DNA of 64,000 bases from Bacillota bacterium (GTDB lineage Bacteria > Bacillota > Sulfobacillia > JAJZYS01 > JAJYTV01), in the NCBI GenBank assembly GCA_021793215.1, contig JAJYTE010000006.1, positions 1-64,000 on the forward strand, given 5' to 3'. Under the pieces are notes generated by a model, which saw only the letters and a list, made by a program, of their open reading frames with translations, searched no databases and was not told the DNA's origin. Made by a program: the position numbers and the translations under genes. This document shows, in pieces, positions 40,789 through 60,960 of this stretch. Position 1 is the stretch's first letter; every line of letters begins with the position of its first letter.

Positions 40789-41258
40789 CGCGCGTCCTGG
40801 TGACCGCCGACACCCACGCGCCGCGGCGCGTTCTGCCGGACTGGCTCCTAGACCGCGCCGCGCAGGCGGATCTCATCGTGCACGCGGGCGACCTCTGCGA
40901 TGGATCCGCGCTCTGGGCGCTCGCCGCGCTCGCGCCGACCTACGCGGTGCGCGGCAACAACGACGTGGTCCCGCTTCCGGAGCGCCTCACTCTTGACATC
41001 GACGGCGTGCGCATCGGCATCGTGCATGGCGACGCGGGGCCGGGCCGCACGACGCCCGAGCGGGCACGCCGGGCGTTCGACGACCCCCTCGACGTCGTCG
41101 TGTTCGGCCACTCCCACGAGCGGCTCTGGGAGCAGGTCGAAGGAGTTTGGCTGCTGAACCCGGGCTCTCCAACCAAGCCGCGCGGCGGCCCCGCCTCGGC
41201 CGCTTGGCTGACGTGCGTCGGCGGGGCGGTCGGCATCGCGTTCCTGGACGGAGACTAG
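40785..41258 (+). CDS. Metallophosphoesterase, YfcE/MJ0936 family
   Basis: This 157-residue calcineurin-like enzyme has the metal-site motifs TADTH (usually SDTH), HAGDLCDG, RGNND, VHGD and GHSHE. Such small proteins are phosphodiesterases with mostly unknown substrates. ATG overlaps the trmL stop. The stop overlaps the convergent AlaX gene by 4 nt. Confidence 0.88.
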   Translation: MTRVLVTADTHAPRRVLPDWLLDRAAQADLIVHAGDLCDGSALWALAALAPTYAVRGNNDVVPLPERLTLDIDGVRIGIVHGDAGPGRTTPERARRAFDDPLDVVVFGHSHERLWEQVEGVWLLNPGSPTKPRGGPASAAWLTCVGGAVGIAFLDGD

Positions 41259-42424
41259 CCAGGCAGGCGCAGGCGGGCGGCCTGCAGCAGCTCCTCCGCG
41301 GGCAAGGGCACGAGCGCCTGCGCCTGTGCTGCGGAGCCGCCGCCCCTGCCCCCGAGCGCGCTGCAGATCGCCTTCACGATCTCCCCGAGATGCGGGCCTT
41401 CTCCGGACGTGCGGCCGAGCACCAGAACGCCCTGGTCGTCGGCGGTTCCCGTCAGGGCGCAGAGGGTGACACCCCGGGCGGCCAGACGCGCCGCGAGATC
41501 GCGCAACTCCTGCGCCTCTCGGCCCGGGAAGGCCCGAAGCACGGGCATTCCCTGCGCCTGCTGTGCGATGTCGTCCGCCTCGCGGTCGAGCAACGCGCGC
41601 CGGTAGCGCTCGGCGCTGCGACGCACCTGCGAAAGCTCTCCGAGGCGCTGCACCGTCGAGGCCGCGACCTCTTCCGGCGCAACCCCGAGAGCCCCCGCCG
41701 CCCGCGACAGTTCGTCTGCGCGGGCTCGGTGGTCCCAGCCCGCGCGCAGGCCTGCGTAGAAGCGAATGCGGAAGCCGCCGTGCTCGGGCGCGCCGAGGTA
41801 GAGGTGGATCGGGCCGACCTCGCCGGTGCGCGCCGGGTGGGTGCCGCCGCACGGGTTTTGGTCGAAGTCCTCGATCTCGACGAGGCGGTAGGGCGGGCGA
41901 ACATTGTCCTTCGCGCGGAGGCCGAGGCGGGAGAGTTCGCCCTCATCGACCCAGCGGGCGACGACCGGCCGGTCTTCGAGCACGACCCGAAGCGCGAGTT
42001 CCTCCGCGCGGGCGAGGCCACCTGGGTCCGGCGCCTCGCGGCCCGCGATGTCGAACGTCGAGACGGTGTGGCCGGTGTGGAAGGAGATCGTCTCGCGGCC
42101 GAGCACCCTGCGGACCGCCTCGGAGGCGATGTGCTGCGCACAGTGCTGTCGCATGTGGTCAAGGCGGCGCTGTACATCCACCGCGCCCTCGAGCATGCCC
42201 TCGGCGGGAGAGGCCAGCAGGTGCCAGACGTCGCCCGCGTCGTCCGACTGCACGTCGAGCACCGGCTGACCCCCGAGCGTACCTCCGTCCGCAGGCTGGC
42301 CTCCAGACTCCGGGTAGAAGGCGGTGTCCTCCAGGCGTACCCAGGTCCCCCGGTCGTCCGTCCGCATTCCGTCGACCCGGCTGCGGAAGACGTAGAGGTA
42401 CGAATTGTCGTAATATAGGCGCAA
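41255..42424 (-). CDS. Alanyl-tRNA editing protein AlaX with DHHA1 domain
   Basis: This 389-residue protein has the AlaX N-terminal fold (LRLYYDNSYLYVF, then DTAFYPESGGQPADGG), the SAD-type zinc site (H-x3-H in RQHCAQH and C-x3-H in NPCGGTH), and a C-terminal DHHA1 domain with GVLVLGRTSGE and GGRGGGSAAQAQ. It hydrolyses mischarged Ser-tRNA(Ala) or Gly-tRNA(Ala). The TTG at 42424 has ggggag 10 nt upstream; the in-frame ATG at 42451 has a ribosome site only 2 nt away and is less likely. Confidence 0.88.
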   Translation of the reverse strand: MRLYYDNSYLYVFRSRVDGMRTDDRGTWVRLEDTAFYPESGGQPADGGTLGGQPVLDVQSDDAGDVWHLLASPAEGMLEGAVDVQRRLDHMRQHCAQHIASEAVRRVLGRETISFHTGHTVSTFDIAGREAPDPGGLARAEELALRVVLEDRPVVARWVDEGELSRLGLRAKDNVRPPYRLVEIEDFDQNPCGGTHPARTGEVGPIHLYLGAPEHGGFRIRFYAGLRAGWDHRARADELSRAAGALGVAPEEVAASTVQRLGELSQVRRSAERYRRALLDREADDIAQQAQGMPVLRAFPGREAQELRDLAARLAARGVTLCALTGTADDQGVLVLGRTSGEGPHLGEIVKAICSALGGRGGGSAAQAQALVPLPAEELLQAARLRLPG

Positions 42425-42511: not shown

Positions 42512-42970
42512 GTGCGCTGCCCAGCGTGCGGCTACGCGGACAGCCGCGTTCTCGACTCGCGTCCGGCCCAGGACGGCGCCGCCATCCGGCGGCGCCGTGA
42601 GTGCCCGCGCTGCCAGCGCCGCTTCACGACCTACGAGCGGCTTGAGGAAGTCCCGCTCCTGGTGGTCAAGCAGGACGGTCGCCGCGAGAGCTTCGACCGC
42701 CAGAAGATCCTGCGCGGCCTGATGACGGCCTGCGAGAAGCGGCCCGTCTCCATCGCTCGCCTGAATGAACTGGTCGACGATGTCGCCCGGCAGGCCCACG
42801 ACGAGGCGGACGGCGAAGTGGCCAGCCGCTGGATCGGCGAGCGCGTGATGGACGGACTGCGCGACGTGGACGAGGTGGCGTACGTGCGCTTCGCCTCGGT
42901 GTACCGGGACTTCGCAGACGTCGAACGATTCCGCGAGGAGGTGGAGCGGCTGGGCCGCAAGCGTACTTGA
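42512..42970 (+). CDS. nrdR: Transcriptional repressor NrdR
   Basis: This 152-residue protein has the N-terminal zinc ribbon (MRCPACGYADSRVLDSR and CPRCQRRFTTYER) and the ATP-cone domain (VKQDGRRESFDRQKILRGL). It represses ribonucleotide reductase genes in response to dATP/ATP. No NrdR boxes were seen in this window. The GTG start at 42512 is family-typical; its stop overlaps the next gene by 4 nt. Confidence 0.95.
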   Translation: MRCPACGYADSRVLDSRPAQDGAAIRRRRECPRCQRRFTTYERLEEVPLLVVKQDGRRESFDRQKILRGLMTACEKRPVSIARLNELVDDVARQAHDEADGEVASRWIGERVMDGLRDVDEVAYVRFASVYRDFADVERFREEVERLGRKRT

Positions 42971-43596
42971 CGGCGGTGATCTTCGACCTTGATGGGACAC
43001 TCACGGACACTTTGCCGCTCGTGGTGGTAGCGCTGAATGCAGCGCTCGCGCCGGCGTGGGGTGGACCGAAGGACTTGGATGCGATGCGCAGCGTCTTCGG
43101 TCCCAGCGAGGAGCGCCTCATCGCGCAAGAGGCCCCGGGTGACCCGCACGCGGTCGATCGGTTCTACGAGGCTTACGGCCGCGAGCATGCGCGTCTCGCG
43201 CACCCCTTCGAGGGAGTGCCCGAGATGCTCGGGGAGCTCTTTCGGCGCGGCGTCCGCCTCGGGCTTGTGACGAACAAGGGCCGCAAGTCCTCGGTGATGA
43301 CGATCGAGGAGTTCGGCATCGCGAAGTACTTCTCGGCCATCGTCACGGGCGACGACCTGCCGGCACCGAAGCCGGATCCTTCGGGCATCCTCAAGGTGTT
43401 GGCGGCGCTGTCGGTACCGGTGACCGCCACGGCCTACGTCGGCGACACCCGGAACGACATGCGGGCTGCACACGCCGCAGGCGTTCGGGCGATCGGCGCG
43501 GGATGGCAGGCGGGCGACGTCCCGCTGGCGGACGAGGTCCTACGAACGCCAGAAGACGTCCTGAGGCTACCGGAGGCCAGGGGCACCAGCAGCTGA
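42967..43596 (+). CDS. HAD-superfamily phosphatase (PpaX/Gph-like)
   Basis: This 209-residue enzyme has HAD motif I DLDGTLTDTLP, motif II TNKG, and motif III/IV GDDLPAPKPDP and YVGDTRNDM. It resembles pyrophosphatase PpaX and phosphoglycolate phosphatase; the substrate is not certain. The TTG start overlaps the nrdR stop. The Sec-glutaredoxin gene follows after 17 nt, so all three genes are probably co-transcribed. Confidence 0.85.
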   Translation: MTAVIFDLDGTLTDTLPLVVVALNAALAPAWGGPKDLDAMRSVFGPSEERLIAQEAPGDPHAVDRFYEAYGREHARLAHPFEGVPEMLGELFRRGVRLGLVTNKGRKSSVMTIEEFGIAKYFSAIVTGDDLPAPKPDPSGILKVLAALSVPVTATAYVGDTRNDMRAAHAAGVRAIGAGWQAGDVPLADEVLRTPEDVLRLPEARGTSS

Positions 43597-43613
43597 CGAA
43601 GGGGGAACGGACC

Positions 43614-44087
43614 GTGGCGAACCTGACGCTCTACACGCTGCACGGCTGACCGTACTGCGCCGTCGTGCGCGACCGGCTCGGAGAGCTGGGACTGGAGTAC
43701 CGCTACATCGAGGTTCCGCCGCGCCGTGCGGACCGCCACGCGGTGCGCGAGGTGTCGCAGCAGGAGACGGTCCCGGTGCTCGTGATCGAGGAAGACGGAG
43801 AACGCACCGTCCTGTCGGACGAGAACGACATCCTCGCGTTCCTCGACGAGCGCTTCGCCGCGCGTTCGACCGACGACACGGCCGCACCGTGGGACGAAGC
43901 GGCCACTCGCCAGCTCGAGGAAGTCGTGGCGGGTGGCGATGCGCGGGCGCAGGCGCTCTTGGCGCTGGCGGAACGCGCGCGGGCCTCCGGCGAGATCGAT
44001 CGCGCGAACTGCCTGCATGCCGCCGCGTGGTACCTGCGGGACGGGCAGCACTGGGCGGCGAGGCAACTCGAGAGCCTTCGAGGGTAA
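43614..44087 (+). CDS. Glutaredoxin-like selenoprotein with helical C-terminal extension (Sec at TGA 43647-43649)
   Basis: A 157-residue frame starts at a GTG (43614) behind aaggggga. Codon 12 is TGA, giving the active site H-G-U-P-Y-C: Sec12 and Cys15 in place of the C-P-Y-C of glutaredoxins. The fold continues with strand EYRYIEVPP, the cis-proline strand TVPVLVIEEDG and the glutathione-site-like LSDENDILAFLDE. After residue 85 a charged helical region of about 70 residues follows, unusual for glutaredoxin and loosely GST-like. A hairpin at 43659-43677 lies downstream of the TGA as a SECIS candidate. Without readthrough the gene would be called from GTG 43665 and lose its active site. Confidence 0.88.
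43659..43677 (+). promoter_or_regulatory. Candidate bacterial SECIS hairpin (first Sec-glutaredoxin)
   Basis: GCCGTCG pairs with CGACCGGC as 7 bp with one bulged C around the loop UGCG; the loop lies 17-20 nt after the UGA. A bulge near the loop is also a feature of known bacterial SECIS elements. Confidence 0.45.
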
Positions 44088-47199: not shown

Positions 47200-47912
47200 C
47201 GGCGCGGGATCTCCTCGCGCGCCTCGCGCCCCTCTACCCGTCCGAGGGCTGGTGGCCAAGCGCCTCGCCCTTTGAGACGGCCATTGGCGCGATCCTCGTG
47301 CAGGGAGTCGCGTGGCGAGGCGCCGCGAACGCGGTGGCGGGCCTGCGTGACGCGGGACTCCTGAGCGCGGCAGCCCTCGCGGCAGCCGATCCCTCGCAGA
47401 TCTCTGAGGCCATCCGTCCCGCGCTCTACCACCACCAGAAGAGCGGTTACCTGCGGTCCTTCGCGACGTTCGCCTTGTCCATCGGCGCGGTCGAACGCCT
47501 CGCGGGCATGCCGCCGAAGCAGCAGATGGAAGCGCTCCTCGGCGTGCGAGGGATCGGGCCGGAGACGGCCCAGGCGATCATCGTCTACGCCCTCGGCGGC
47601 GCCGAACCGGTCGTAGACGCCTACGCCCGGCGCCTCTTCGTACGGACGGGCGCGTCGCCAAACAGCACACCCGCGGCAGTCGAGGAGGCCATGCGCACCG
47701 CGATCGGCGTCGATCCGGCGCGCGCAAGGGCGCTTCACGCCGCGGTGGTGGAGCACGCCCGCACCGTCTGCCGCAGGGCACCGCGCTGCTCGGCCTGCCC
47801 CCTCGCGATGGGATGTCCCAAGACTCTTGGAGAAACTGGTGTAGGTAGGGGGTGGCGCGTTGTCTCTCGCGCAGGGAGTGCGGCCGAAGAAGGCGAAGCA
47901 GGAGACGGATGA
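47196..47912 (+). CDS. HhH-GPD DNA glycosylase (COG2231/MagIII-like)
   Basis: This 238-residue protein has the helix-hairpin-helix LLGVRGIGPETAQAII, the catalytic aspartate in PVVDAYARRLF, and a C-terminal Fe-S-type cysteine loop C-x5-C-x2-C-x5-C (CRRAPRCSACPLAMGC). The lysine of true endonuclease III (GVGRKTA) is a glutamate here, so it should be a monofunctional glycosylase, closest in pattern to 3-methyladenine glycosylase III. Its last 53 nt overlap the next gene. Confidence 0.8.
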   Translation: MTARDLLARLAPLYPSEGWWPSASPFETAIGAILVQGVAWRGAANAVAGLRDAGLLSAAALAAADPSQISEAIRPALYHHQKSGYLRSFATFALSIGAVERLAGMPPKQQMEALLGVRGIGPETAQAIIVYALGGAEPVVDAYARRLFVRTGASPNSTPAAVEEAMRTAIGVDPARARALHAAVVEHARTVCRRAPRCSACPLAMGCPKTLGETGVGRGWRVVSRAGSAAEEGEAGDG

Positions 47913-48333
47913 GGAGCGTCGCCTGCGCCTTCTGAAGGAGCAGGTGGTGCGCGAACTCGGCCTCTGGGATAGACTGCTCGCGGAGGGTTGGGGCGGCCTC
48001 AGCGCCAAGGAGTCCGGCAGAGTCGGGGGGATCGTCGCCCGGCGGCTGCGCGAGGGGGGAGACGTCGCGGATCCAGGGGTGAAGGGCGTGCACGCGATCC
48101 TGCGCACCAAGCCCGATTGCAGCCTCTGCGAGAAGGCGCAGGCAGCGCTCGAGCGCATCGCGCGGGACGTCGCCCTGAAGGTGCAGCGCGTAGAGGTGGA
48201 CGCGAGCGATCCCGATGCGATGCGCGTTCCGATCGTCGAGATCGAGGGCGTGGAGGTGCAGACGGGCAAGGTATCCGAGTTTCGGCTGCGCAACTGGCTC
48301 AAGGAAAGGGGCTTCTTGGATGCGACTCGCTGA
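47860..48333 (+). CDS. Glutaredoxin-like (DUF836-type) protein with N-terminal helical extension
   Basis: The 157-residue product has about 70 charged helical residues at the N-terminus, then a thioredoxin-fold domain with the dithiol CSLCEKAQAALERI and the cis-proline strand MRVPIVEIEGVEV. This resembles DUF836 glutaredoxin-like proteins. The TTG start has aggggg upstream. It uses ordinary cysteines, unlike the two Sec-glutaredoxins nearby. Role unknown. Confidence 0.8.
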   Translation: MSLAQGVRPKKAKQETDEERRLRLLKEQVVRELGLWDRLLAEGWGGLSAKESGRVGGIVARRLREGGDVADPGVKGVHAILRTKPDCSLCEKAQAALERIARDVALKVQRVEVDASDPDAMRVPIVEIEGVEVQTGKVSEFRLRNWLKERGFLDATR

Positions 48334-60848: not shown

Positions 60849-60960
60849 ACCCTCTTATCTCTCAGCCCAGGGGGGCTGCAGGAATTGGCACCTTTGGCGC
60901 CGCAGCGCCGGGTTGCCGGGTTTCATCGGGCCAGTCCCTCCACCTCTCGCGATAACGGGA
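60849..60960 (-). ncRNA. SAM-I (S-box) riboswitch aptamer
   Basis: The minus-strand leader carries the S-box core in order: the P1 5' strand (GTTATC), GAGAGGTGGAGGGACTGGCC, CCCGATGAAACCCGGCAACC, GGTGCCAATTCCTGCAG and the P1 3' strand GATAAGAGGG. SAM binding favours the downstream terminator, so high methionine/SAM shuts off metY-metX. Typical of Bacillota methionine genes. Confidence 0.93.

Follow-up and report, generated by a model that had tools for sequence, protein, structure and literature searches.

Comparative genomic evidence for a selenocysteine glutaredoxin with a conserved, predicted two-helix C-terminal extension in a little-known order of Bacillota

On comparative evidence, the gene at positions 43614-44087 of the forward strand encodes a genuine selenoprotein, a glutaredoxin with a UPYC active site followed by a conserved helical extension. 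The window, that is, the whole 64,000-nt stretch of DNA analysed, belongs to a genome of 2.74 Mb in 87 contigs with an estimated completeness of 97.7%. The gene runs from GTG to TAA and encodes 157 residues with the in-frame TGA read as selenocysteine (Sec), and its orthologues were detected in 11 further genomes. As the first-pass annotation had proposed, the TGA at 43647-43649 occupies the first position of a C-P-Y-C site (Sec12), and the frame is open from the GTG at 43614. The good ribosome site described there was located by direct reading as a Shine-Dalgarno-like AGGGGG (43600-43605) eight bases 5' of the GTG. The stop codon at 44085-44087, previously given as TGA, was read as TAA.

With Cys placed at the in-frame stop, as had been suggested, the protein exceeded the Pfam cut-offs for GST_N_3 (52.8 bits, cut-off 22; the best Pfam match), Glutaredoxin (PF00462; 48.7 bits, cut-off 22.9), and GST_N_2 (PF13409; 39.9 bits, cut-off 25), all three matches lying inside residues 1-84. 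None of the NCBIfam models scored above cut-off; the nearest by E-value was Uxx_star (NF041212; 42.8 bits, cut-off 66), and the model for E. coli-type Grx2 (GrxB, NF007702) gave 22.7 bits against 133. A CxxC-type site and a TVP loop are the defining motifs of glutaredoxins. Among the invariant positions of the 12 long sequences were C/U12-P-Y-C15, T52-V53-P54, and D69-E70. The AlphaFold model of the whole protein had a pLDDT of 91.0 and a pTM of 0.67, and its glutaredoxin/GST-N-like core (residues 1-83; 43614-43862) matched GST N-domains with Z scores of about 12-14 and an rmsd of 1.4-2.2 Å over approximately 80 residues.

The machinery for Sec incorporation is encoded in full in the window's genome, including tRNA-Sec (69.3 bits; anticodon TCA according to ARAGORN), selA (524.8 bits), selB (305 bits, or 330.5 bits together with an adjoining piece), and two copies of selD, each with an in-frame TGA. 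The two selD copies are located at C79:50489-51406 and C69:9179-10102; two copies were also observed in the genomes G004 and G007. Among the 15 genomes of the order, the family cut-offs were exceeded by selA in 13, selB in 14, and selD in 14. The tRNA-Sec cut-off was passed in 13 of the 15 genomes, a count that takes in matches just over the threshold, one of which, in the window's genome (48.3 bits), was identified by ARAGORN as tRNA-Ser; among the matches listed, scores of at least 66 bits were obtained in 12 genomes.

The same 15 genomes were searched with the window protein; 13 were matched, and 12 contained the full-length form. No match was detected in G001 and G014, both more than 90% complete, and only a short paralogue was found in G002 (82% complete). 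The active-site codon is TGA in six full-length orthologues, three of them from the window's genus and three from a genus of another family, and TGC in the remaining six, all from the sister genus of the window's genus. Alignment with Cys homologues, advised in the first-pass annotation, placed Sec or Cys at this column in 12/12 full-length orthologues and 11/11 short paralogues; the latter, about 75-90 residues long, invariably have Cys there. Homologues with neither residue at this column, which that annotation had regarded as evidence against its reading, were not found among the sequences compared. The dN/dS values of the core ranged from 0.08 to 0.28 in nine pairwise comparisons; those of the nine codons preceding the TGA, from 0 to 0.83, come from too few codons to be judged.

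A SECIS-like hairpin, CCGGCUC-GGA-GAGCUGG, is located at 43673-43689, its loop lying 30 nt after the UGA. According to the available part of PMC13188914, the bacterial SECIS model calls for a loop of 3-9 nt with a G in the first two positions, a stem of 4-16 bp, 16-37 nt of spacing, and an MFE no higher than -7.5. The window gene conforms to it with a GGA loop, a stem of 7 bp, a spacing of 30, and -9.3 kcal/mol. These general rules are permissive, since 27-33% of the synonymous shuffles of the TGA genes also pass them. The Sec and Cys genes are distinguished by a 4-bp stem, GCUC/GAGC, around a GGN triloop, which is present in 6/6 TGA genes and 0/6 TGC genes. Its codons, CGG-CTC-GGN-GAG, are fixed across the TGA genes save for the third loop base, and the TGC genes have CGT/CGC/CGG, CTC/CTG, and CAG/GAA at the hairpin codons. 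A scan allowing no bulges recovered the hairpin in three of the six TGA genes, and the other three need one bulged base. For the local 22-nt hairpin, a stretch picked after the sequences had been viewed, 0.5-3.3% of synonymous shuffles folded as well; over the 60 nt that follow the UGA, folding was no better than in shuffles. Among 13 recovered selD contexts (17 selD copies), the GGN triloop was present in 12, of which 11 were closed by C-G, with a spacing of 17 or 20. By the stricter C-GGN-G criterion, 8 of the 1082 TGA triplets of the window passed. A conserved gene could be assigned only to that at 43647; the remaining seven were assessed by nothing more than their translated context. Three lines of evidence support Sec at the first active-site position: the complete machinery, the alternation of Sec with Cys, and a SECIS-like hairpin confined to the TGA genes.

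In the phylogenetic tree, the long form constituted a single clade (99/98 support) apart from the short paralogues, and one U/C change was needed within it. With the Cys paralogues placed outside, a gain of Sec followed by a loss costs the same as two gains, and parsimony cannot settle the ancestry. Since the position of the hairpin is common to both Sec clades, a Sec-containing ancestor with loss in the Cys genus is favoured.

The long helical C-terminal extension noticed in the first-pass annotation (residues 84-157; 43863-44084) was upheld by sequence conservation and by two AlphaFold models. Its 74 residues are kept in 12/12 full-length orthologues with six invariant columns (W93, L101, D129, L134, A137, and W147), and dN/dS values of 0.21-0.39 in nine pairwise comparisons indicate purifying selection. 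The whole-protein model contains two long helices, 95-124 and 128-156, and the extension modelled alone gave the same helix pair (pLDDT 91.5, pTM 0.73). Neither Pfam nor NCBIfam contained a family that it matched above cut-off, and a single-sequence search of PDB sequences returned no match. Most PDB sequences matched by a C-terminal profile were designed coiled coils or unrelated helices, and these matches were set aside. Among 398 sampled genomes of the phylum, nine matches were obtained at an E-value of 1e-12 or better: four in the order, with the long form, and five covering the core only. A scan of genome contigs returned two loci, matched over the core. In the plasmid search, core-only matches occurred in nine records (eight haloarchaeal by name), none over 80% of the query, and the extension gave zero matches. 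From the 398 sampled genomes of the phylum, the extended form appears to be confined to one little-known order.

The low-molecular-weight thiol background of the order is unusual. The glutamate-cysteine ligase families GCS2 and Glu_cys_ligase were each found in 0/15 genomes of the order, and both were matched in control genomes. BshC was present in two of the 15 genomes, G001 and G014, which are the two genomes above 90% completeness without the long glutaredoxin; this contrast carries little statistical weight because the comparison spans four families. As these genes were not found, reduction by bacillithiol, or by glutathione from a known ligase, is improbable; the electrons would then likely come by a thioredoxin-reductase-like route or from a thiol that is imported or unknown.

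The position of the gene after nrdR and a HAD phosphatase, stated in the first-pass annotation, agreed with the profile matches of both neighbours. The nrdR gene (42512-42970, forward strand; NCBIfam TIGR00244, 197.3 bits, cut-off 124.65) lies upstream in the same direction and overlaps by 4 nt a HAD-family phosphatase gene (42967-43596, forward strand; Pfam HAD_2, 143.7 bits), which stops 17 nt short of the Sec gene. At 8/8 loci fetched from the window's family, nrdR and the HAD gene were both found, with the Sec- or Cys-glutaredoxin gene following the latter. At three fetched loci of the other family, 0 of the 14 window query genes were detected, the glutaredoxin's own row being excluded; in G013 of that family, the flanking genes encode a methionine-synthase-like protein and a GH1 glycosidase. 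A ribonucleotide reductase large-chain match was obtained in 15/15 genomes. In the window's genome it is on contig C14 and not C35, and no reductase genes were found near the Sec-glutaredoxin gene; two large-chain matches, C14:75038-78013 and C14:80314-81756, lie about 2.3 kb apart. No clear NrdR box was recognised by eye in the alignment upstream of nrdR, and the conserved stretch there is probably the start of a divergent alaX-like gene. An AlaX-like alanyl-tRNA editing protein with a DHHA1 domain is encoded at 41255-42394 on the reverse strand, divergent from nrdR. Elsewhere in the window, a second glutaredoxin-like protein with a CSLC motif (47860-48333, forward strand; PF05768, 28.5 bits) is encoded in one frame with about 70 N-terminal residues. 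At the loci L070, L071, and L074, in three genomes of the sister genus, the two parts of this protein are in different frames at the same point, which might represent overlapping genes or a frameshift. A SAM riboswitch (RF00162, 82.9 bits) was located at 60852-60958 on the reverse strand.

If the TGA were a true stop arising from mutation or assembly error, the gene would be dead or would yield a shorter protein of 140 residues from the GTG at 43665, and a frame of that length does exist. Such a product would be without the whole active site, the TGA is common to six genomes of two families together with a fixed hairpin, six other genomes have TGC at the same codon, and dN/dS is below 0.4 in the core and extension in all nine pairs. 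The true-stop explanation was thus rejected as scarcely credible. A start at GTG 43665 alone is likewise disfavoured, because the Cys orthologues run as one open frame through the same residues. The proposal that the Sec-glutaredoxin serves class II ribonucleotide reductase as its dedicated electron donor, under shared control by NrdR, draws on the compact gene order kept in the window's family and on the reductase large-chain matches in all 15 genomes. The different neighbours in the other family, the location of the reductase on another contig, its occurrence also in the two nearly complete genomes without the long form, and the failure of any NrdR-box-like motif to stand out 5' of nrdR by eye make this dedicated role unlikely. 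Of the link to ribonucleotide reduction that the first-pass annotation had called conceivable, the nrdR-HAD-glutaredoxin linkage held in one family; it is gone in the other, and no reductase lies nearby. Because the gene follows nrdR and the HAD gene in only one of the two families, the link is possible but unproven.

That the protein is a reduced glutathione-transferase relative, whose extension would be left over from the GST C-terminal helical domain, is suggested by GST_N_3 being the top Pfam match and by the close superposition of the first 84 residues on GST N-domains. Neither the whole protein nor any of the 12 extensions matched GST_C families, structure alignments running through the extension onto GSTs had an rmsd of 10-11 Å, and the extension alone best resembles rubrerythrin-type halves in shape, so that such a remnant is improbable. 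That resemblance would fit a half ferritin/rubrerythrin-like unit, two of which would pair as a metal-binding four-helix bundle: the extension alone aligned with the first helix pair of sulerythrin/rubrerythrin with a Z score of 9.6 and an rmsd of 2.6-2.8 Å over 66-69 residues, and these proteins filled the top Foldseek ranks. However, the Foldseek E-values were 0.3 or worse, a Z score below about 13 may, among helical bundles, reflect a common arrangement, no sequence match was detected, and no Glu or His of the kind that serves as rubrerythrin/ferritin-like metal ligand is invariant in the 12 sequences; a metal-binding half-unit is very unlikely. Because the Foldseek values are this weak and conserved metal ligands were not found despite the rubrerythrin-like shape, the extension is better read as a generic helical hairpin that would suit dimerisation or docking.

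The explanation that we consider best, and on the whole quite probable, is a Sec-decoded UPYC redoxin with a dimerising or docking hairpin and a reductant other than glutathione or bacillithiol. The UGA at 43647 would be decoded as Sec by SelB and tRNA-Sec with the aid of the hairpin directly 3' of it, a step strongly supported by the comparative data. From the fold and motif, the product would have a glutaredoxin/GST-N fold in which the Sec12 selenolate attacks and the Cys15 thiol resolves, and would presumably act as a selenol/thiol-disulfide oxidoreductase. The C-terminal two-helix hairpin would most likely serve as a dimerisation or docking module, joining two copies or holding a partner; taken solely from the predicted shape, this is the weakest step of the explanation. 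Electrons would likely be supplied by the thioredoxin-reductase-like route or the imported or unknown thiol considered above. In one family, spacing and synteny suggest that the gene probably shares a transcript with nrdR and the HAD phosphatase gene. A bolder version, in which a dimeric selenol redoxin working without glutathione or bacillithiol partly replaces the bacillithiol system in two families, holds its partners by its own two-helix module, draws its electrons from an as yet unnamed reductase or thiol, and is tied to deoxynucleotide supply via the nrdR operon in one of the families, is doubtful as a whole.

The chemistry and decoding of Sec-glutaredoxins are already known; the new features are the conserved added module and the unusual thiol background. 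UxxC Sec-glutaredoxins were reported in the Sargasso Sea selenoproteome (PMC1088965), and cGrx1 of C. oremlandii is a native selenoprotein proposed as the reductant of MsrA (PMC7642778). In the accessible parts of both papers, these proteins share with ours the UxxC motif, the Grx fold, and a bacterial SECIS after the UGA, but no extension features in their descriptions there, whereas the window protein has the conserved 74-residue two-helix one. The UXX-star proteins (NF041212 and relatives) are the best NCBIfam match by E-value and match 12/12 orthologues, but the window protein scores below their cut-off and carries UPYC, compared with the UxxT of family 1 and GxGU of family 2 given in the available part of PMC13188914. 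GST_N_2 also links the window protein to the GST-like selenoprotein (PF13409) given in tables of PMC13188914 and PMC1088965; no GST C-terminal domain was found in the window protein. The short CPYC glutaredoxins that occur as paralogues in the same genomes have the same core (43-51% identity) but contain Cys only, are without the extension, and form a separate clade. Among the papers that the literature searches listed, none was recognised as describing a Sec-glutaredoxin combined with a helical-hairpin extension.

The protein adds a selenoprotein architecture that no tested NCBIfam model calls above cut-off; hence, automatic annotation may place the start of the gene downstream of the TGA, and the active site would be lost. 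Since the known glutathione and bacillithiol genes are apparently absent, what reduces a glutaredoxin in this order is a directly testable question. The order also offers a clean natural experiment: one and the same long protein uses Sec in two of its genera and Cys in another, the genomes for the most part retain the Sec machinery, and the SECIS-like hairpin is intact where the gene encodes Sec and disrupted where it encodes Cys.
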